From Cavenderia fasciculata (lineage: Eukaryota > Evosea > Eumycetozoa > Acytosteliales > Cavenderiaceae), in NCBI RefSeq assembly GCF_000203815.1, contig NW_004457695.1, positions 2,974,054-3,038,053 on the forward strand: a stretch of 64,000 bases of DNA, in the 5' to 3' direction. This document shows positions 19,448 to 49,644 of the stretch, in pieces. Position 1 is the first letter of the stretch. Every line of letters begins with the position of its first letter. A model generated the notes under the pieces. The model was not told where the DNA came from and searched no databases. It saw only the letters and a program-made list of their open reading frames with translations. The translations under genes were made by a program, and so were the position numbers.

Positions 19448-21465
19448 ATGGATGAAAATAATATAGAGGGAGGAGGAACTGGAGGAGCAGGAGGAGGATC
19501 CATTGAATATGGTGGTGGTGGTGGATCAGTGGATGATTATGGTGGTTCATCAGCCGATGACAATGGTTTGGCAGTATATAATGGAGGATCTGTAATATAT
19601 CACGACGAACAAGAAAATGATACAATTGGAATATTGACAAAAAATAGAATTGATGATAATAATAATAATGATCCAGATGATATTAGTTTAGATGGAGCTG
19701 ATTTAAATACTACGCCTTTACCTATAATTGATGAAAAATCAAATACGACTACTACTACGATGAAGATGAAAAAGAAACAGAGTATCCTAAGTAAAGAATT
19801 TTGGAAAAAGAATTACAAGAAAATACTTGTATTATTTTTAATCATTAATCTTGGATTCCCTTTATATTTATCTTATAATATGCCAACTTCATTGGTTAAA
19901 ATTATTGGTATGTAAAAAATAATCATAAATCATAATTTTATGAAAATAATACTTTACTTTACTTACATAGTTTTTTATGTTTATTTTGATAGATAATTTT
20001 TATCAAATTGATGCACAACAATATGGCAATTTATATAGTGCATACGCATTACCTAACGTATGCCATCATTTATTTATATAAATATACATACATACATATA
20101 TACTTAGAGCTATTTTATCTCTCGCCATCTAGATTTTAATGGTATTTTTAGGTGGTATTTTAGTTGATTTGTTTGGACCAAATAAATGTAGTATAGCATT
20201 TATGGGTTTAATGACCATTTCAACCATTCTAGCTGGTATTTCGACAATCACTCCTACTCCTTCATTTGGATTGATTGTATTTTCTAGAGTACTTTTGGGA
20301 ATTGGTGGAGAATCTTGTTTGGTTTGCATCAGTGCCTTGTTGTCAACATGGTTCAAAAGTGATGAAATGCCATTTGTAATGGGTATCGAATCGACATGGG
20401 TACAATTTGCAAGTCTCCTAGCATTTGGAATGTTACCATCTTTATATGAAGCTACCAATTTCCCATTTACCGTTTGGTTTTGTTCACTAGTTACCATTCT
20501 TGGTTTGTTTTTAAATATTATATTCCTTGTATTTCAAAAAAGATTAGATTTTAGTATGTACACACAAAATTAAAACTACTATACATATATATAATTCTTC
20601 AAAAAATTCAAACAACTATTTATACATATTTTTTAAAAAATAGGAAATAAATATGGTGAATTAAAAGATGAAGATGAATTGGAATCAAAAGATAAAAATG
20701 GAAATAGAATTAGATGGAGCAAATATTCAACAAGTAGAAGATATTGAATTGTCAGAAGTAGATTTAATATCATCACAAGACAATGCATCTAATGATACAA
20801 TTAATTCAACAACAAAACAATCATCAATTAGAAAAATATTTAGTGAATTGAAAAAGGCTCTTTCATTGGTTAGAATGATTACACTTAGAATGTGGTTATT
20901 ATTTTTCATTACCTTTTTTGGGTATAGTGCATTCTATGGTTTCGATATTATAGTAATCGATATGATTGTTGAAAAGTATAAATACGGTGACACTAAAGCT
21001 GCCATGATGATGGCGATTGAAACGTTTTTCACTGGATCGATGGGTCCAGTATTTGGATTCTTTGTAAAAAAGTTTGAAAAGAGATTGACTGCACAGGCAG
21101 TTGGTATCACAGTCATGGGTATTGGATTGGCCATCATGACAATCACTACGACCACCCCTCTACCTTGGGTACTGATTACAGGTCTTGGATACGGTCTAAT
21201 GAACAATAGTATCATGTCATCGGTACCAGTGGTAGTTGACGAACAGGTGGTTGGTACTGCCTACGGATTGATTGGTACTAGTTACAACCTTGGTATCATC
21301 CTCTACCCCATTCTACTAGGTGCCACTAGACAATCAACAGGCAACTATACATTAGCAATGTGGATACTAGTACTCAGTTCAGTTCTAGCTCTAGTATTTG
21401 TTGGCATATTAAAATACTTTGATAAAAAAGAATTAAATGTAAATAAAAGATTAGATTCGAAATAA
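19448..21465 (+). CDS. Major facilitator transporter, MFSD1-like
   Basis: Exons 19448-19907, 19993-20057, 20133-20553 and 20644-21465 encode a 12-helix transporter of about 590 aa. A Gly/Asp/Asn-rich cytosolic N-terminus of about 110 residues precedes the first helix (ILVLFLIINLGFPLYLSY). The string IDAQQYGNLYSAYALPN followed by GGILVDLFGPNK resembles animal MFSD1, a lysosomal dipeptide transporter, and carries the MFS inter-helix 2-3 motif. Helices 7-12 lie in exon 4. Exon 4 enters in the frame reading NKYGELKDEDELESKDK, but everything after about 20700 is in another frame (MEIELDGANIQQVED onward). One base too many in the AAAAA run at 20694-20698 would explain this. It may be a sequencing error or a real lesion; both flanking parts look well conserved. 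Confidence 0.82.
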
Positions 21466-27098: not shown

Positions 27099-28712
27099 TT
27101 AATTTAAATTTTTATTTAAGATTCCAATTTTTTTAAAGATTGGAGTTATAATAGAATTGATTGATTTTTGATTATAAGCAAGATAAGCCATTCCAACAAT
27201 GGAGACAATAGGTAAAAGGACTCTAAAAGTTTTAAGAGCAAAGGAAATTGATTTGTTGATTGGTGGTGGGTTGTCGGCATAACGACTAGTGTCGACAGTC
27301 CAGATATTTTTGAGTGATGGGTCGATAGCTTGAGCGGCGAGGAGACCCGAGATGATACCATCTTCGTGGAAACCATAGCCATAGTATGCACCACAATAGT
27401 AGGTTCTACGTGTACCTTGAATGGTGGACAATCTTTCACGAGCAGCTTCCGAAGTGCCATTGTAGAGTGGGTGATCATATTGAATGACCTTGTGAACTAG
27501 ATTACTGGCTGGTGGGAAGACTGGATTGAGGGTGACGTAGAGTGGGGTCTTTTCACGATCCAACCACGGTTGGATACGATTGATCCAATAGGTGACACAA
27601 ACTTGCTTGTCTGTACTGGAATGGTCGTCGTAGATATAGTTCCAGCTAGACCAGGTATTTTTACGCTTGGGCATGAGACGTTCGTCCGAGTGAAGGTAGA
27701 CGGTATGTGGAGTGTATACAAATTTCGACATAACATCCCTTTCATTTTCGGTGAGGTCTTGGACGAGTGGAAGGAGATCGGGTGGATGACAAGCCATGAC
27801 AACATAGTCAAATGTTTCAGTGGCTGGAGTTGTACCCTCAGCGGTTGTATATACAATGTCTACAGAGTCGGTCTCTGGATGACGGATGATTTGGGTGGCT
27901 GGAGAAGAGAGGAGAACTCGACTGTTGTTGGCCTCTAAATACTCGCGGAGCTTGGCCATGTAGAGGTAACTGCCACCGAGTACAGTCTTCCATTGTGGAC
28001 GTCCAAACATTTGAAACATACTATGATTGTTAAAGAAACGGACGAGTGTGAGGATGGGGAATTGATCAATCTCGGCAAACGAGGTAGACCACAAAGCAGA
28101 CATGACTGGCACGAGATAGTAGTTTTTAAAGGCTTGAGAGTAACGATGCTTGCGTGTAAACTGTTCGATGGTCATATCGGCGTACAAGTGTGGCGTGTGG
28201 AGAATCATAGGTGCTTCCTTGTGGAATCTACCCATATCGATAATCATCATCCAAAACGATGGACTAAAATAATTCTTCCATTGTGAAAAGACTGTCGAAA
28301 CAGTGTCACTACACCATTCAATCTCGGGACGACGAACTAGTTTGTTTGACGACGACGACGACGATGACGATGTCTTGGTTTGTGGACCATTGGCATCAGT
28401 ATCGGGTGATAATTGTGGGTATGGGAATGGTCTTGCGTTGAGTGACAATGAAAATGATACATCAGAGTCTGCTGATTTGATACCCATCTCTTTAAAGAGT
28501 CTGACTAGATTGGGATACTTTTCATCGTTGAATACGAGGAACCCAGTATCTGCCTTTACTGTTACATCTCCAAATGTTGCATCGACTGTATTTGTATGAC
28601 CTCCCAAATAATCACCCTTTTCAAACACTGTCACTTCATGTCCACCTTGTGTCAACAAGTATGCTGCTGACATTCCTGAAATACCTCCTCCTACAACTGC
28701 TACTTTTACCAT
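27099..28712 (-). CDS. FAD-dependent amine-oxidase-like oxidoreductase (COG2907 type)
   Basis: A single uninterrupted exon encodes 537 aa. The N-terminus VKVAVVGGGISGMSAAYLL is a Rossmann dinucleotide loop, followed by an acidic ribose-binding end (VTVFEKGDYLGGHTNT). The YYCGAYYGYGFHEDGIISG block near the C-terminus is the second FAD contact typical of this group, and the protein ends with a possible membrane anchor (VLLPIVSIVGMAYLAY). The family is the predicted NAD/FAD-binding protein that accompanies cyclopropane-fatty-acid synthase in many bacteria and forms the N-terminal half of the plant enzyme. Here it stands divergent from exactly such a synthase, 1389 bp away. Its reaction is not firmly known; a redox role on unsaturated or cyclopropane acyl chains is an inference. 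A short poly-Ser run (residues about 116-123) is a local insertion. Confidence 0.9.
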   Translation of the reverse strand: MVKVAVVGGGISGMSAAYLLTQGGHEVTVFEKGDYLGGHTNTVDATFGDVTVKADTGFLVFNDEKYPNLVRLFKEMGIKSADSDVSFSLSLNARPFPYPQLSPDTDANGPQTKTSSSSSSSSNKLVRRPEIEWCSDTVSTVFSQWKNYFSPSFWMMIIDMGRFHKEAPMILHTPHLYADMTIEQFTRKHRYSQAFKNYYLVPVMSALWSTSFAEIDQFPILTLVRFFNNHSMFQMFGRPQWKTVLGGSYLYMAKLREYLEANNSRVLLSSPATQIIRHPETDSVDIVYTTAEGTTPATETFDYVVMACHPPDLLPLVQDLTENERDVMSKFVYTPHTVYLHSDERLMPKRKNTWSSWNYIYDDHSSTDKQVCVTYWINRIQPWLDREKTPLYVTLNPVFPPASNLVHKVIQYDHPLYNGTSEAARERLSTIQGTRRTYYCGAYYGYGFHEDGIISGLLAAQAIDPSLKNIWTVDTSRYADNPPPINKSISFALKTFRVLLPIVSIVGMAYLAYNQKSINSIITPIFKKIGILNKNLN

Positions 28713-30101
28713 GATGATGATGATATATTTATATTTATAAAAATATGTAAAAAGAAAAAGATAAAAATAGATAGATAGATAGATAAATCGATAAATTTTA
28801 ATCGAGTTGTGAATAGAGAGAGAGAGAATAGAATGATGTCAAAGAAGAAATAGAAGAATAATTTCTTGTTGTTGATGTTATCTGTTCTGTTGTTGCTAAT
28901 AATAATGAATGAATGATGATTTCTATTCCTGAACCAAATTCTGATCAGAATAGGAAAGTGGTGATGATCATAGAGTAATAGTGTCATGACTTGAGAGTTT
29001 GGCAGATCTCTGGCCGTGCATAGGTGGCACTCTGATGATATGATGCTCAATGAGGATTCGTTGAAAGATTTGATTTTTATCCGGCGAATAGTAAAGTTTG
29101 TGGGGCCGGCTGATATCGATTTGTGATCGAAGTCTTGGCATTGGTCAGATCCCTTCACCTAATGGCCTTGCAACGATGGCGCTTGCATTTTTATTGGGTG
29201 GAAAATAGAATCCTCTATCCTCGACGAACTGTTTTTGTTTGCTTGTTTGTTTGCGAAAGGGCTGAAGGGTTTTAACCGCTCAACAACTTGAGCCCTACAC
29301 TGATGTTGTGAGAAGAAAAATAACCATCCGATGATGATACAAAAGGAGGAGGAGGTCGAGAACCACCGATTTTTTTTTAGGCTTGTTGGTGAAGTTACCC
29401 CCTCCACAAAACAAAAACACCAGAACTGATCAAAACTGGTCTATCAACCAACCTCAATCTTCTTATTCTATTATTATTATTGTATTATTATTATCTTTGT
29501 AACAACAAACCAACTCACCAATCATCCATCTACCATCTCTCTCTCTCTCTTTGCCTATTTGCCCCAAAGTTATTGCATCTCAACAAACAGTTTTGATTGT
29601 TGTATTATCTTTTAAATCCTTGTTGTCCTTCGTATCGACAATCTCGACAAGCGACGTAAGTGACCTATCTTGTTTGTCTCACCACCTCCTCACAACCTAT
29701 CTTTGCAGCCACTGCACCCCTACACAACAGGTTTTATCGTCCTACTATTCAGCCCCTTATTTTATCAACTTCTCCTCCTCTGTCCAATCAACTTGTTTGA
29801 TTGTTTTTGAGACTCTAGAGAGAAGTGAGGAAGGAGGAGAGGGTTGGCTAGCTTGTGACCCTCCGATTCTATTTTTTCATCTTCTTCTTGTTTTTTTTTT
29901 AGTTGTTATCTGTTTCGTCCTACTACGAGTTGTATGTTCTATCTATCTATCTATCTACCTCTATCTATCTATTTGTTTGAATTATTTCAAAAGTTTACAA
30001 ACAATTTATTAACAAACAAACAATAATAATACAAAAAACTTTTAGTGACCCTCTTTTTAATCAAAAACACAGTATATAGAAAAAATAGCCCATCATAAAA
30101 A
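28713..30101. promoter_or_regulatory. Divergent spacer, FAD oxidoreductase / CFA synthase
   Basis: About 1.4 kb between start codons, with GATA repeats near 28770-28785, GA repeats near 28816-28830, and CT-rich stretches near 29537-29555 and 29940-29970. Two frames of about 150 codons (28706-29158 minus, 29551-30012 plus) have no domain and are rich in rare residues. I looked for the DUF1365 protein often found in bacterial versions of this locus and did not see it. Confidence 0.55.
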
Positions 30102-31695
30102 ATGTTGAGTGTATTAGTTCCAACCCCGATAAGATCAGCATGTGCTTCATCGCTTGTATCATGGGGACATTCATTTGTCTTTAAAAATTTCCTACCAAAG
30201 ATCAAGACTGGTTGTATTATCGTCGAGATCAATGATACCGATTATCCATCCTATTCTACCACTACCACCAAACCAATGGTATTTGGTGATATCAATAGTC
30301 CAGAATCAAACAAATCAAAAATGACCATTACAAACTTGTACAGATTTTTAACAAAACGTAAGAAAAAGATAAGAGAAGAGAAAGAAGAATATATATATCC
30401 AAGCAATATTCTAAAATACTAATATTAATTGATTTATTTCTTTCTTTTGTAGTTTTATTTGGAGGTGATATAGGATTCTCTGAAACTTATATTTTAGGCG
30501 ACTTTGTAGTTGATAATTTAACAACTCTTATAAAATGTAAGTATTTAAATAACAAACAATACATACAATAACAAGTTTAATAATATTAATATTTTCTTTT
30601 TTTCTTTTTTCTATTTTTAATTTATTTTATTTAGTATTTATTGATAATAGAAATAATATGGATCAATTGGATAGTAAATGGGCAATATTTAAACATGGAG
30701 CAGATAGAATATTCCATATTCTTAATAACAATACTGTTGCCAAATCCAAGGAAAACATTAGAGCTCATTATGATCTTTCCAATGATATGTTTCAATTGTT
30801 CCTTGACCCAACGATGAGTTATTCGTGTGCTGTCTTTGATTCACCCGAACAAGACTTGGAAAGTGCCCAGATGAACAAGATCCGTAAATTGATTGACAAG
30901 GCTAATCTTAAACCACACCACCATCTCTTGGAGATTGGGTCGGGCTGGGGTGCCTTGGCCATCGAGGCTGTTCGTCGTACTGGATGTCGTGTCACTACCA
31001 TCTCGTTGTCAATCGAGCAGGTCAATCTTGCCAAACTCAGAGTCAAGCAGGCTGGCCTAGAAGACAGAATAGACGTCGTGTTGATCGACTATCGTAACGT
31101 CGCCGGCCAGTTTGACCGTATCATTTCATGTGAGATGCTCGAAGCTGTCGGACACGAACACTATGACGAATACTTTGCATCGCTCGAAAAGCTTCTCAAG
31201 CCCGACGGTATTGTCGTGTTGCAGTACATCTCGTTTTGCGATCAACGTTATGAGACGTATCGCAAGAGTTGTGACTTTATCCAAAAATATATATTCCCAG
31301 GTGGATTGTGTCCATCCAACACGTCCCTCCTCGAATCCATGACACGTAGCTCTCAACTCATGTTGGAGCATCTCGAAAACTTTGGTCCCCACTATGCCAT
31401 GACCCTCGCCCGTTGGCTCCAAACCTTTACCAACAACCGTGAAAAGATCCTCTCGACCACTGGATTTGACCAACAATTTATTCGAATGTTTACCTATTAC
31501 TTTTGTTATTGCGAGGCTGCCTTTGCTACCCGTACCATCAACCTTATTCAAATGGTTCTATCTCGTCCATGTAATTTAAATTTACCAATTTTCAACAAAG
31601 ATATTAATCAAAATACTACTACTACTATTGTATCTGATGACAGTGATCATGCAGATAATGCCAATTCTTCACAAGTAGCTGATCGTGCTTGTTAA
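30102..31695 (+). CDS. Cyclopropane-fatty-acyl-phospholipid synthase
   Basis: Three exons, 30102-30357, 30453-30536 and 30635-31695 (phase 1 introns), give about 466 aa. The N-terminal region has GGDIGFSETYILGDF, the small lipid-binding domain motif of the family. The methyltransferase domain follows with RAHYDLSNDMFQLFLDPTMSY (run broken here for length: RAHYDLSNDMF then LFLDPTMSYSC), the SAM loop LLEIGSGWGALAIEA near residue 215, the bicarbonate-site block CEMLEAVGHEHY, and YIFPGGLCPS. It transfers a methylene group from SAM onto the double bond of a phospholipid acyl chain. The divergent neighbour is the COG2907 FAD enzyme. Confidence 0.93.
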
Positions 31696-42804: not shown

Positions 42805-44741
42805 ATGTCAACATTAGCAGATGAATTCTTAAATGATTTAAATGATATAGGAGATGAAAATTATAATAATGAATATGACGATGATGACGATAGAGACGAC
42901 AACGAAGAAGATAATGACAGAGACGAAGAAGAATCATCGTCATTAACTAAAGATCAGCAACAACAACAACAAACAAAAAATCAAGAAGAAGAAGATGCTG
43001 ATGATGTAGGTGAAAAAGATGATCTTATGCTTACAGATGATATATTGGAAAAGAAACAAAATCAATTAATATCCTCTATTAAAGATGCTCCTATAGAGTC
43101 TATTGCAACTTTAAAAAATTCAACTAGATTAAGTAATATTTTAAAAGTATGTAAAACAAAAAAGAAAAAAGAGAAATAGAAATAGATATATTAGAATCTC
43201 TTTTTATTAATTATCTTTTTTTCTTATCTTTGTAGAAAGTAGAACATCAACTTTGTCAAGCATTACCAGAAAAGGGAAAAAAGACAGTTCAAGGTGTGAT
43301 TGAACATCAATTGATTGTTGATTGTAACAAGATTATTCAAGATATTCAACATGAAATCTATCTCATTCACAAATATGTTAAAGAAAAATATAGTACCAAA
43401 TTTCCTTCACTAAGTAATACAATTCAAAATCCATTAGATTATATTCTTGTTGTAAAAAGAATTGGAAATCAAGATGTAAGAAGAAAGAAATGAAAAAAGA
43501 AATAGAAAAAGAAACTATACTTTTTATTAACTCTCTCTTCTTTTTATTTTAGGATTTAATAAATATAAATTTATCAGATTTATTACCAAAAGCAACTATA
43601 ATGGTAGTAATAATGTCAAGTGGTACAGATAAAAGTTTATCAGATGGAGAATTGGAAAGAATTAATTCGGCGTGTGATATGGCAATTGAATTGGACAAGA
43701 CAAAGAAAGTTATTTTGGGTTATCTCGAGAGTAGAATGGCATTTATTGCTCCGAATCTTTCGGTGTTGTTGGGTGGTAGTATTGCAGCTCGTCTTATTGG
43801 TATTGCTGGTAGTGTCTCTAATCTTGCTGTCATTCCAGCCGGTAATCTACAAACATTTGGTGCAGATACCAAAGCATTGGCTGGTTTCTCTGGTATGGGT
43901 AACCGTAAATTCCAAATGGGTTTCATCTCTCAATGTGATATTGTTAAATCGGCTCCTGTATATCTTCAAAAACAAGCTATTCGTGCAATAACTGGAAGAG
44001 TTTCAATTGCTGCCAGAGTTGATTCTTGTCAAGAATCAAATCATTGTAAGAAAATAGAAAAACAAAAAAATAGAAACAAAAAAAAAGATAGATTACAAAA
44101 CTAATATAATATAATATATTTATTTTCTTTTTATTTATTTTTTTTGTTTAGATGGAGAATTAGGACAACAATATAAAGAAGAAATTGAAGCAAAGATTGA
44201 AAAATGGCAAGAACCACCACCAACCAAACAAATTAAAGCACTTCCAGCACCAGCCGAACATAAAAAGAACAAACGAGGTGGTAGAAAGGCAAGAGCCGTC
44301 AAGAAACGTTATGGAATGACCGATATGAGAAAAGCACAAAATAGAATGGCATTTGGTGAAGAGGAAAAGACTATTGGCGACAGTGGTATTGGTTTGGGTA
44401 TGGTCGGTGAAGGTAGTGGTAAATTGAGAATGATGGCACAGGATCGTGGTATTTTGAAAAGAAAGAAAATTGAAGATGGTCATAAATCAAGACCTGGTGC
44501 TGGTGGTGGTGCAGGTGCCAAATCTGTTCGTCCCGGTGGTCTTACTACTGTTGGTGGTGCAGGTGGTGCTGTCACTTCGATTGCTGGATCATTTACAATG
44601 AGTGGTTTACAATCTGTCATGGTTACTCCTGCAACTGGATTACAAGTTGCTATTGGTAGTGGCGGCGGCAGTAGTGGTGATGCATCTGTTAAAAATAAAT
44701 ACTTTGGTGATGGTATAAAGAGAAAAATTGATCAACTCTAA
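42805..44741 (+). CDS. prpf31: U4/U6 snRNP protein PRP31
   Basis: Four exons, 42805-43146, 43236-43475, 43553-44045 and 44152-44741, give about 554 aa. An acidic, Asp/Glu/Gln-rich N-terminus follows MSTLADEFLNDL, the usual PRP31 opening. The coiled-coil part includes VIEHQLIVDCNKI. The Nop domain (about residues 200-340) has AFIAPNLSVLLGGSIAARL, GNLQTFGADTKAL and ISQCDIVKSAP with ARVDSC. A basic segment, HKKNKRGGRKARAVKKRYG, precedes the C-terminal tail, which is Gly-rich here and ends KYFGDGIKRKIDQL. The protein binds the U4 15.5K-RNA complex and is needed for tri-snRNP assembly. Confidence 0.96.
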
Positions 44742-44797: not shown

Positions 44798-45466
44798 TCA
44801 ATGATGATGATTATTTTTAGAACGACTACTAGTTGGATGTGTTGGAGTTTTAAATGATAATGCTTCAACTGATGCTATTTGATTTGTATATTCACTATCC
44901 ATAAAATTCATTACTCTTATTTTTCTTGAATATAATTCTTCCAATTTCATATTATCATTATTATTCATTTGTCTTGATTGAGTTTGAATTAATATTTCAC
45001 CAATTAATGATGCAATTTGATGTTTACACTAAATAATATAATATATATTAGATAACAAGTAGTGTATTATATTATATATTGAATTACATACATAGATTGA
45101 ATCTTGTTTTGATAGAACATTAAAACCAAAACTTGGACAACTACAATAATTTGCATCCAATAGACACATATACTTTGTTCCTTTTCTACCATCGACCACA
45201 TAGATTGATCGATTCGATGGAAAAAAGATATATTTTGATATTGAATCATTATCTACTAGTTGTAATGATGAGAATACTGTCTTGTTAAATATTGAATAAA
45301 GACATATTAATGTATCGTCTGACACTAAATATTTAGAAGAAAAAAAAAAGTAAATAGATTAGACTAGACTAACATAATCTACTCTCAATGATATTAACCT
45401 AAAACACATACAAGGTCTATCTGCTTTTAATAAATCATCAACTATATCAATTAATTTAACATCCAT
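44798..45466 (-). CDS. zswim7: SWIM-domain protein ZSWIM7 / SWS1
   Basis: Three minus-strand exons, 45412-45466, 45092-45324 and 44798-45028, give about 172 aa (human ZSWIM7 about 140). The zinc-binding SWIM motif is Cys79-x-Cys81-x15-Cys97-x-His99 in the context CLLDANYCSCPSF, FNVLSKQDSIY and CKHQIASLIGE, which aligns block by block with ZSWIM7. A preceding stretch, FSSLQLVDNDSIS, also matches (human ALDLVDRQSI). SWS1 partners a RAD51 paralogue in the Shu complex, which promotes homologous recombination and tolerance of damaged bases at forks. The last intron splits the SWIM motif exactly before Cys97. It is head to head with HMCES, 179 bp apart, and convergent with PRP31, 56 bp. Confidence 0.88.
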
Positions 45467-45645
45467 CCTTTTGAGCTAGTATAACTTTAAGATAATATTA
45501 TATGACTATACTTGACATTAATCGAACTATTATCTTTACCTATGAATCTAAATTTCGAGGAAATCTGAATAAAATTGTTTTGGGGTGTGAAGATGCAAGT
45601 TTGTTTGTTATTATTTTTATTAATTTTTTTGTTTATAGACAAAGG
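45467..45645. promoter_or_regulatory. Short shared promoter, ZSWIM7 / HMCES
   Basis: 179 bp between start codons. It includes a T-rich stretch ending TTTATAG at 45639, which resembles an intron 3' end and could mark a small intron in the HMCES leader. An in-frame ATG at 45502 is not favoured as the HMCES start, because the catalytic Cys must follow the initiator Met. Confidence 0.5.
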
Positions 45646-46824
45646 ATGTGTGGAAGATCAGTATTAACATTAGAACCACAAGATATACAAGCTAGAACTA
45701 ATACAACTAGAGTAATAGGTCAATACCAACAATCATATAATGTAACAATCGGTATGGTTCAACCGGTCATTGTGGCAAGTGCCAATCAACATGTTGTTCA
45801 AGCCATGACATGGGGAGGTGTAACGATTGGAACTCAAATGGGTCTAAGCAACATTAGATCAGACAACAAAAATGGTCTATTCAAATCAATGTTAAAGAAA
45901 CAAAGATGTTTGGTGGTAGCTAATGGTTTCTATGAATGGAAACATCCAACTCATGGTAATTCAAAACCTCTACCTTATTATTTTCATATTCCAAATCAAG
46001 AAGAAAAGACAAAGACAACTTCTTCTTCTTTGTCATCATCAGATTCAATGATGATTAGTGAATCTGATAGATTTGGAGGTAATGAAAAGATTATAGATAA
46101 ATCTAAAACAATCATGTTGATGGCTGGTGTATACCAAGTTACAAAGGATAATGGTGGTAATGACTCTTATAGATATTCTGTCATTACAACTGATGCTTCA
46201 AAAGAAGTGTCACCTGTACATCACAGAATGCCAGTTATCTTTAGAGATCAAGATGATATTAATAGATGGCTATCAGAAAGCACTACCGATGAAGAATCCT
46301 ATGGTATGATGAAACAATTTATTGGTCTTTCCTCTCATAGAGTTCCAATGTTGGTCAATAGTATTAAAAATAATGGTCCAGAATTGATTGAAAATGAAAA
46401 GGATTATTATTCAAAACATGGTATAAATAGATTTTTTCAACCAATCCAAGATGTACAACAATCTCAACAAGATGTACAACAATCTCAACAACCTATAGAA
46501 CAACAAAATAATGTGCAAATACAACCAACAATATTAGATGAAGAAGTTGAATTTGATTTTTTCGATGATACTCCTCCTCCTTCGTCTTCTTCTTCTTCCA
46601 CCATTTCTCAACCATCTTTTGTAAATACACAAATATCCTCCTCCTCCTCATCCTCTTCATCCCAATCAAAACCAAGAGCCAATTCAAACACCACAACCAA
46701 AAAACCAACTGTATCAAAATCACCATCAAAGTCACCATCCAAATCAACTCTTCTTGCCAACAAGAAATCATTTACAAATCCACCCAAAGGTGGAGGTATT
46801 GAAAGGTTCTTTACTCCACAGTAG
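45646..46824 (+). CDS. hmces: Abasic-site shield protein HMCES (SRAP domain)
   Basis: A single exon of 392 aa starts MCGRSVLTL. The family crosslinks abasic sites in single-stranded DNA through the alpha-amine and thiol of Cys2 after Met removal, and this decides the start at 45646. SRAP blocks present are SYNVTIGMVQPVI, MTWGGVTIGTQ, CLVVANGFYEWKH (Asn near 91 and Glu near 95), YRYSVITTDAS and PVHHRMPVIF (His near 192), so all the active-site residues are there. An Asn/Ser-rich insertion lies in the middle. The C-terminal 130 residues are low-complexity Ser/Gln/Lys and end GGGIERFFTPQ, which looks like a PCNA-interacting peptide. A similar string, HGINRFFQP, closes the SRAP domain. Confidence 0.94.
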   Translation: MCGRSVLTLEPQDIQARTNTTRVIGQYQQSYNVTIGMVQPVIVASANQHVVQAMTWGGVTIGTQMGLSNIRSDNKNGLFKSMLKKQRCLVVANGFYEWKHPTHGNSKPLPYYFHIPNQEEKTKTTSSSLSSSDSMMISESDRFGGNEKIIDKSKTIMLMAGVYQVTKDNGGNDSYRYSVITTDASKEVSPVHHRMPVIFRDQDDINRWLSESTTDEESYGMMKQFIGLSSHRVPMLVNSIKNNGPELIENEKDYYSKHGINRFFQPIQDVQQSQQDVQQSQQPIEQQNNVQIQPTILDEEVEFDFFDDTPPPSSSSSSTISQPSFVNTQISSSSSSSSSQSKPRANSNTTTKKPTVSKSPSKSPSKSTLLANKKSFTNPPKGGGIERFFTPQ

Positions 46825-47151
46825 AGAGAGAAAGAGATAATAAATAAATATTTGTATCGCCGTTAGTTTCAGGAAAGTGAAGTTACTAATGCGAAAGCAT
46901 TGGGGGTTCGAGTCCCACACATCACTTGTTCAAGTCCTTTGCTGCATGTTTGTTGCTACTCTTTTTGACACTTGCAAACCAAACCAAGTTGTGTCCACCT
47001 AAATGATAGACCTAGACATTGATATACATCTCTAAACATCTCTATCCTATCCATATCTACCTTTTCTGTTTCAACACATAACAAACTACTACTGCTACTT
47101 TAAAATCTTATATAAACAAATCCTTTTATTTATTTATTATTTATTTATTTA
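46825..47151. other. Convergent spacer, HMCES / beta-helix protein
   Basis: About 330 bp between two 3' ends. The middle is filled by the duplicated partial tRNA-Leu and its flank (46861-47031). The remainder is AT-rich with a TTTA run near 47127-47153. Confidence 0.7.
46861..47031 (+). pseudogene. 5'-truncated tRNA-Leu(CAG) copy with 3' flank
   Basis: This 171-bp block matches, in inverted orientation, 49447-49619, which covers the 3' two thirds of the tRNA-Leu gene and about 107 bp of its downstream flank. The acceptor 5' strand and D arm are missing; the copy opens at CGTTAG, the D-stem/anticodon-stem border. The T-stem has lost two of five C, so it cannot pair fully. Apart from that 2-nt loss I see no mismatch by eye, which suggests a recent event. 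It keeps a good B box but no A box, so transcription is unlikely. Confidence 0.88.
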
Positions 47152-48936
47152 TTAAAAAGAACCATAATGATTATTCTTATTTTGACTTGGATGATGATGA
47201 TGATGATATTTGTGATGATTATGATGTCTCTTGTAGAGGACGTAGATAATGATTACTAAAATGGCAACACCAAGTACAACACCGATTGCAATACCTGCTT
47301 TTTGGCCACTGGTTAAACCACTCTTTGGTTTAGATGGTGCTACACATAAATCATCACCCATTCCTCCATTAATGGTACACTCTGCTCCACTTAGACAAGA
47401 AATAAATGGTACCACTGTTTCATTTTTAGTAAAAATATGAACAATATCTACATCTTTAATTGTAATGGTTGAACTATTTTGACATTGCTTAATAATAATA
47501 ATAATAAATCAAAAAAATTGAATTAATATATAAATACCAAATCATACTAATCATTTTAAACTTTTTTTTTGACTTACAATTGAAGTAATAATATTTGAAA
47601 CGGTAATATAATTTAGATTAATTGTTGAACTACCAGTAACATATAAGATACTACCATTTCGAGCAGCATTACCAATAAATTGTGAACCATTGAATGCACC
47701 AATATAGGAATTGGATGAATAGATAGCACCACCTTCTTGAGATGCGGAATTACCACTAAAATCACAACCAGAGATTGTAACGATAGAAGTTGAAAGAGCA
47801 CTGACAACACCTCCTTGCACAGCAGAATTACTAATAAAACTACTATTATATAGACCAACTCGAGAGTTTGTTGCAACGATTTGACCATTATATGGAGCAG
47901 TGTTACTAGTGAAATTGGAATCCAAAACTTGAATGTCTGAATTGGTCAATGTAAATGCACTAGTATTGAGATTAGAAGTGACAGATGATTCAACAAAGAC
48001 AACGTTTGTACTTTCAAAAGCACTGATCAAAGATCCATTACCAACGGCTTGATTATTTGTAAATACACATTCCGACAATATACTGCTGGCGAGTGAATTG
48101 AATATGAGAATGAGTGAACCTTTGGATGCAAGTGTATTATTGGTGAATTGGTTCTTTCCAAGGTAGATGTTGTTGACCAAGCTGGATTGAATGAGGAATT
48201 GTGCTTGGTTTTGATTAAATGTATTGTCGGTAATAGTAACAAATAAAATGTTACCAGTCATTTTAATCAAGGAGTTGGCCGTTGTAATATTGTAAAAGTT
48301 GGATTGTTGGAAAACAACTTGTGATTCGAATGGGAGGTTGTTTTGAGTACTGACCGATAGAATGGAACCGTCAAACGTGGTAATATTGGCAAATGTACAT
48401 GACAAGAAACTGATGGATGACTTTGAATTGATGCTAGAGTAGACGATACCACCCGATAGATCACCAGTGACTGCTAGATTGACAAAGGTAACATTGATGA
48501 CGGCCAGAATGGTTTGATCGGCAGAAGTGATGGGACCACCATTAACTGGCAATAGAATTTGTACAAAGTATGGTACAAAGACACCGGTCATATCAATGAC
48601 GACCGATCCATTATTAGCGACAATATTGAGTGTTTGATTGTAAAGTTGAATGTTTGAATTGGCGTTACCAGTGTAAGTACCCTCTGACATGAATATGGTC
48701 AATTGATGGCCTCCACCAACCGTCACATTGTTGAAAGATGCGATAGCACTTGCAATATCTGGACATGTGTTATTTACATTACTATTATCTGCACCACAGT
48801 TGATACTAGTGTTGGTTGATTGCGAATTTACATAAAGTGTTGTTTGTGTGCCTGTTGTTATTGTTGCTTGTGCTGATAATGTAAAAAAACTAACCAACAC
48901 AATGAAAACAAATAAAAATGTTTTTAAATATTTCAT
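47152..48936 (-). CDS. Secreted/type I membrane protein with beta-helix repeats
   Basis: Two minus-strand exons, 47578-48936 and 47152-47487 (phase 0), give about 564 aa. A signal peptide (YLKTFLFVFIVLVSFFTLSAQA) is followed by a parallel beta-helix region with repeated short strands, for example NNTLASKGSLILIF, NQAVGNGSLISAF and GNSASQEGGAIYSS. Many NxS/T sites suggest an N-glycosylated outer face. After a Cys-containing segment (FISCLSGAECTI) comes one membrane helix (AGIAIGVVLGVAILVIIIYVL) and a short cytosolic tail with ten His in a stretch of about 25. Such pectin-lyase-like repeat proteins are a large dictyostelid group of unproved function, often supposed to act in adhesion or sensing. 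It lies between the two inverted tRNA-Leu copies. Confidence 0.85.
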
Positions 48937-49339
48937 CTTTGTAAAAATAAATAAATAATCAAATAAATATTTGTTGTTGTGATTAAAAATGATGACGTTG
49001 TTTGTTACAACTTATAATAATGAACCGTTGTTACATTACATTATAAAGTTGTCGCTTTTATCTTTAATTTTTCTAAAGACAAGAAAAATCATCATAAAAT
49101 TTTCTCAAAATATCTGAGTCGCGTGGGGCCACCCTTTGATCTTTGGAATGGAAGTGGGTTCCCCAATATTTTGTTTCTGAATAGATCAAGGTCCTGCTTT
49201 TTAAAGATAAGGTATTGACGTAGATGTTTGGACATATGCAATGTAATTACAATCAGTTAATATTGGTTGATTAACATATATGTTATGAGTAGTTTGGTTC
49301 CAACAACAAAATCAAATTATTTCCCTTGTTGGCGATTTC

Positions 49340-49358: not shown

Positions 49359-49553
49359 TTGATTTTTTTGGGTGTTGAGCTGAAGTTGTGTCACATGACC
49401 CGACCATCAAACAAAAGTAGTTTGTTGTGTGTTGACAGATAAGGGTAGATGTATATCAATGTCTAGGTCTATCATTTAGGTGGACACAACTTGGTTTGGT
49501 TTGCAAGTGTCAAAAAGAGTAGCAACAAACATGCAGCAAAGGACTTGAACAAG

Positions 49554-49644
49554 TGATGTGTGGGGGACTCGAACCCCCAATGCTTTCGCATTAGTAACTT
49601 CACTTTCCTGAAACTAACGACTCTACCAATTCGTCTAACACACC
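49554..49644 (-). tRNA. tRNA-Leu (anticodon CAG) with 10-nt intron
   Basis: The minus strand folds as a class II tRNA. The acceptor GGTGTGT pairs with ACACATC (one G-T), with discriminator A as required for Leu. The D arm is GAC/GTC around GAATTGGTAGA. The anticodon stem TTAGT/ACTAA is perfect. The loop reads TTCAGG then a 10-nt insertion then T, so the anticodon is CAG with the intron at the canonical 37/38 site. The variable arm is TGC-GAAA-GCA. The T arm is GGGGG/CCCCC with TTCGAGT, giving a perfect B box. The D-arm sequence is more like bacterial or plastid tRNA-Leu than typical eukaryotic ones. T runs of five follow about 50 nt downstream. Confidence 0.93.

Follow-up and report, generated by a model that had tools for sequence, protein, structure and literature searches.

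ZSWIM7/SWS1 and HMCES form a real gene pair in the window (the whole 64,000-nucleotide stretch of DNA that was analysed), in which they lie head to head with 179 bp from ATG to ATG, and their adjacency is most probably an accident of gene order and not a selected module. The two would be ordinary conserved genes: SWS1/ZSWIM7 would encode the SWIM-domain component of the Shu complex, a helper of RAD51, and HMCES a protein that would crosslink to abasic sites in single-stranded DNA and shield them. In a compact genome that looks dictyostelid in its introns, composition and gene content, they would have become head-to-head neighbours by happenstance, and each protein most likely performs its usual task independently of the other. 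A bidirectional promoter may lie in the gap even if the gene order is accidental. An earlier, sequence-only reading had proposed these identities, strands and spacing, and all of them were confirmed.

The coding sequence of SWS1/ZSWIM7 spans 45466-44798 on the minus strand and consists of three exons that encode a product of 172 aa. Exon 1 (45412..45466) carries the start codon at 45466, exon 2 (45092..45324) the first half of the SWIM motif (YCSC), and exon 3 (44798..45028) the second half (CKHQIA) and the stop codon, which ends at 44798. Splice enumeration on this strand left 46 combinations that survived a crude filter, and the three-exon model was picked out of them because both introns (87 and 63 nt, with the ends checked) start with GTATGT and end with TTTAG. 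In the spliced protein, Pfam recognises the SWIM domain PF04434 (4.6e-5, 23.3 bits versus a cut-off of 19.6) as a short match over residues 73-104. The sequence CSC, followed by 15 residues and CKHQIA, corresponds to CXC...Xn...CXHXXA, the motif given for Shu2/SWS1 in a passage of the review PMC6316741; CXHXXA is not exclusive to ZSWIM7 and is also carried by another SWIM protein of the same genome (L002). Similarity extends beyond the SWIM core, both to an archaeal relative over residues 41-99 and to human ZSWIM7, with 35% identity over 139 aa (77.8 bits), a figure as reliable as the human sequence used for the comparison. A search against solved structures gave no match for the protein among the four entries listed (best E 0.88). 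Like the Shu2/SWS1 family of the Shu complex, ZSWIM7 is thus a small protein with the CXC...CXHXXA motif and a nearly full-length resemblance to the human sequence used; unlike the latter, it is 32 residues longer and has a Ser/Asn/His-rich end, and unlike in known SWS1 systems, the RAD51-paralogue partner of SWS1 was not identified here. The gene call is good, and its function is predicted from homology.

Both genes had been described as single-copy, which fits HMCES, the one SRAP match found in the 31.0-Mb, 21-contig genome. For ZSWIM7, a profile search found three other SWIM loci (L002, L003 and L004, the last with two SWIM proteins), none of which is alike beyond the SWIM core: in blastp against ZSWIM7, L002 and both L004 proteins gave no hit, and L003 reached 19 bits within the SWIM core. 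The profile search reads exon by exon and its list lacks the ZSWIM7 of the window itself, and since this copy, with its motif split by an intron, was missed, a further intron-split copy could escape as well. The two L004 proteins (G000:C12:581726-584824, minus strand) are similar to each other, lie in tandem in frames of 195 and 214 aa and have acidic tails, and L002 (on C8) looks like a third relative of theirs.

The archaeal relative comes from a scan of prokaryote genomes, in which the human ZSWIM7 sequence served as the second query row. The 61 stretches that fitted the patterns yielded this one relative, a 100-aa SWIM protein of Nitrosopumilus that is 41% identical to ZSWIM7 over the residues given above and has a Pfam score of 18.8, just below the cut-off of 19.6. 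Its SWS1-like gene and a gene for a metallophosphoesterase stand head to head (L032:3186-4273), and the ORFs mechanically listed for the two overlap; no SRAP match was found in the MAG that holds them, the completeness of which is not stated. This different neighbour counts in favour of chance in the case of ZSWIM7/HMCES. An archaeal link between SWS1 and SRAP was rejected on the basis of this single relative, whose MAG has no SRAP match.

HMCES is intact and its gene call is good: it occupies 45646..46824 on the plus strand as one open frame of 392 aa that starts with MCGR. The SRAP domain PF02586 is matched at 4.5e-45 over positions 1-213 of the 214 in the profile. Ten distinct solved sequences were matched at E 1 or less, of which human HMCES is the best (5ko9/6oe7, 1.4e-21, residues 63-248 aligned), followed by the non-human SRAP chain 2f20 (4.2e-10), 2bdv (0.0015) and YedK (0.0022-0.0042), which places the protein nearer to the HMCES of eukaryotes than to the SRAP proteins of bacteria. 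The SRAP active site is present, with MCGR as residues 1-4 and with GFYEW and HHRMP aligned with human HMCES; Cys2 is the catalytic residue of the SRAP family, the active site of which also has a Glu and a His. Unlike known HMCES, the protein has a dozen or so extra residues in a low-complexity stretch within the domain, and it has a long low-complexity tail. A PCNA-binding box is a feature of the human HMCES tail, and the classical box has a leading Gln, which is absent from both FF motifs of the tail here (HGINRFFQP and the C-terminal GGGIERFFTPQ). The function of HMCES, like that of its neighbour, is assigned by homology. No stop codon interrupts the frame in the 50 codons upstream of the gene (window 45502-45645), which include an ATG at 45502; the probability of this by chance is about 0.012, and it was noticed post hoc. 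The start is likely to be 45646, because a start at 45502 would bury the presumably catalytic Cys2; automatic annotation could wrongly extend the gene in this way.

The gap between the two start codons (45467..45645, 25% G+C) is shorter than the 1000 bp that PMC2871058 gives as the convention for bidirectional promoters. It may be a bidirectional promoter and is a possible shared regulatory region; the shared promoter of the sequence-only reading is suggested by the distance between the genes, and their co-regulation is possible. A symmetric shared element was discarded because the best inverted repeat, with 9-nt arms, was within chance: of 200 random sequences from a first-order Markov model, 34 had arms of at least this length. 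The gap also holds two AGATAA words, against 0.22 expected, and one of the two copies of GGGGTGTG that the window contains; all of these were left out as evidence because they were chosen after looking, and a scan for bacterial promoters (one found, 3.7 expected) is not applicable to this genome.

On its other side, ZSWIM7 lies tail to tail with PRPF31 (42805..44741, plus strand; Nop and Prp31_C domains in the two last ORFs, likely start at the ATG at 42805), and the coding ends are 56 bp apart. Since ZSWIM7 is this close to an unrelated splicing gene, its tight packing is a local trait found on both of its sides and does not single out HMCES. HMCES in turn lies tail to tail with a gene at 47551..49011 on the minus strand, the product of which is a probable secreted repeat protein; its Chlam_PMP match is weak, at 18.6 bits against a cut-off of 20.6. 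The stretch 46860-46925 has a tRNA-like look and was dropped as a candidate, as ARAGORN places no gene there and Rfam gives nothing at E 1 or less. At 49553-49644 (minus strand), ARAGORN calls an unusual tRNA, with an anticodon of four bases, which is probably false because Rfam lists nothing in the window at gathering scores. Elsewhere in the window, an FAD amine oxidase gene (27099-28838, minus strand) and a gene for CMAS (cyclopropane fatty acid synthase; 30553-31695, plus strand) are also divergent; these families are neighbours in bacterial operons as well, so the pair may be transferred or functionally linked.

The frequency of short head-to-head gaps was estimated with a codon-score exon finder in the window and 22 stretches of 9.9 kb (281,822 bp), 22 of these 23 stretches having been chosen for repair genes and not at random. 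Gaps of 250 bp or less were found at 9 of 36 junctions with a loose threshold, where several of the nine rest on short, weak and doubtful ORFs, at 2 of 28 with a middle threshold, where one of the two rests on a doubtful ORF (window 20204-20509), and at 1 of 22 with a strict one. Missed first exons act oppositely, making gaps appear longer, and the ZSWIM7/HMCES pair is itself outside these counts, as the finder misses the short exons of ZSWIM7. Gaps as short as that of the pair are uncommon and not unique; with the two more stringent thresholds, they fall within the shortest few per cent. Intergenic distances in Dictyostelium are described as very short in a passage of PMC2871058, and the intergenic space of D. 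discoideum averages about 700 bp according to part of PMC5295588, which also indicates that non-coding RNAs of that species are not, as a rule, expressed together with their divergent neighbours.

A second base rate concerns the neighbours of 22 other repair-type genes, which were located in the genome by family (Rad51 with 3 loci, IMS 1, MutS_V 6, XPG_I 3, UDG 4, HhH-GPD 2 and DNA_ligase_A_M 3). Among the 50 nearby ORFs scanned, a set that leaves out some flanks of the control genes, 13 have no family and three are parts of the same repair gene; a PBZ-domain ORF adjoining the weakest UDG match (L026) probably belongs to the same gene as that match. A recognised repair neighbour was seen for one control gene in 22, a RAD51 paralogue with a homologue of Nse1 (NSE1; 2.7e-21; SMC5/6 complex) about 180 bp downstream of it, at L012:4582-6344 (G000:C7:1169281 onward). 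As this pair is on the same strand, adjacency of repair genes arises in this genome without a divergent promoter. Another stretch (L023:3894-8017, G000:C15) has an ORF for a uracil-DNA glycosylase close to one of 485 aa with a SWIM domain; the two are separated by a 302-aa ORF of no assigned identity. If this genome holds, as we assume, about 150 repair genes among about 12,000, then chance alone should produce around two repair-repair neighbour pairs per genome, and ZSWIM7/HMCES was singled out by a reader seeking something noteworthy. Furthermore, all three RAD51-family loci found are on contigs other than that of the pair, so the likely kind of partner of SWS1 does not adjoin it. The human ZSWIM7 and HMCES genes are on different chromosomes.

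The step from adjacency to an 'abasic-site tolerance module', which the sequence-only reading had taken, is not supported by these results, since short gaps are not unique, PRPF31 is even closer to ZSWIM7 than HMCES is, and a repair neighbour occurs in the control set as well. Selection on the pairing would seem to be absent. What counts against chance is the uncommon spacing, at the middle threshold (where one of the two cases is doubtful) and the strict one, together with the one lesion class of both proteins, and the chance reading is limited by the small number of control genes, by the neighbour ORFs without a family and by a gap sample taken mostly around repair genes. A module is a reasonable guess, and the evidence neither demands a selected pairing nor rules against it.

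It is possible, if on the unlikely side, that the two genes have the gap in common and are controlled separately, which is compatible with chance adjacency. Either two independent core promoters would then stand back to back in the 179 bp, or HMCES would have a 5' leader intron, with a transcript that starts at or inside the leader of ZSWIM7. A T-rich run that ends in TATAG directly before the HMCES start codon resembles a 3' splice site and may be the acceptor of such an intron, and the frame left open upstream of HMCES points the same way, with the reservation that it was noticed post hoc; T-rich runs, however, are also usual in dictyostelid promoters.

Less probable is a pair selected for the tolerance of abasic sites, in which one bidirectional promoter would set the dose of HMCES and SWS1 and thereby raise shielding and recombination bypass in step. 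HMCES would shield the abasic site and block error-prone bypass, and SWS1 would promote RAD51-mediated template switching past it. The head-to-head geometry and the intact look of both proteins are in keeping with this, and so is the literature. That both act on the same class of fork lesion, as had been claimed, is real biology and already in print: in the passages concerned, the yeast Shu complex recognises abasic sites (PMC6683157), and HMCES, the Shu complex and RAD51 are listed jointly as factors that protect abasic sites of single-stranded DNA (PMC12572151). In addition, in a hypothetical scheme in part of PMC10250235 the HMCES crosslink 'induces TS', read here as template switching. The passage in PMC6683157, however, treats HMCES and the yeast Shu complex as two contrasting ways of handling abasic sites and does not join them. 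The base rates of gaps and of repair neighbours do not require selection either, and no RAD51-family locus was found near the pair. According to part of PMC2871058, bidirectional promoters are often associated with DNA-repair genes, and conserved divergent pairs tend toward functional relatedness in metazoa and fungi. The RAD16/RAD7 pair of Pezizomycotina, described in the same source, resembles ZSWIM7/HMCES in that two DNA-repair genes lie head to head; it differs in that its products act in one complex and that it is conserved as a pair across species. In the open-access literature searched, the ZSWIM7/HMCES gene pair was not found described, and nothing was found on ZSWIM7 or on HMCES with Dictyostelium.

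A stronger version, which we regard as quite improbable, is that the two genes form a unit conserved in Amoebozoa, with one promoter that would couple covalent shielding by HMCES to template switching by SWS1 and RAD51 in a direct handover; if true, it would reveal such a handover between protections that have so far been described side by side. That one of the genes is misidentified, as a generic SWIM protein or a bacterial-type SRAP protein, is scarcely credible: the SWIM match is short, CXHXXA recurs in L002, no solved structure matches ZSWIM7 and 2f20 also matches HMCES, but human HMCES leads the structure matches by eleven orders of magnitude, and ZSWIM7 resembles both the human sequence used and the archaeal relative.

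To conclude, chance adjacency is the preferred reading, and ZSWIM7/HMCES illustrates how little weight a single adjacency carries as evidence when the genome is compact; conservation is what would give meaning to such a pair. As matters stand, apparently intact HMCES and SWS1 genes are documented in this genome. Conservation and co-induction of the pair, if they held, would amount to natural genetic evidence for HMCES and the Shu complex acting in one abasic-site pathway, and a tractable amoeba could then be used to test that single pathway.
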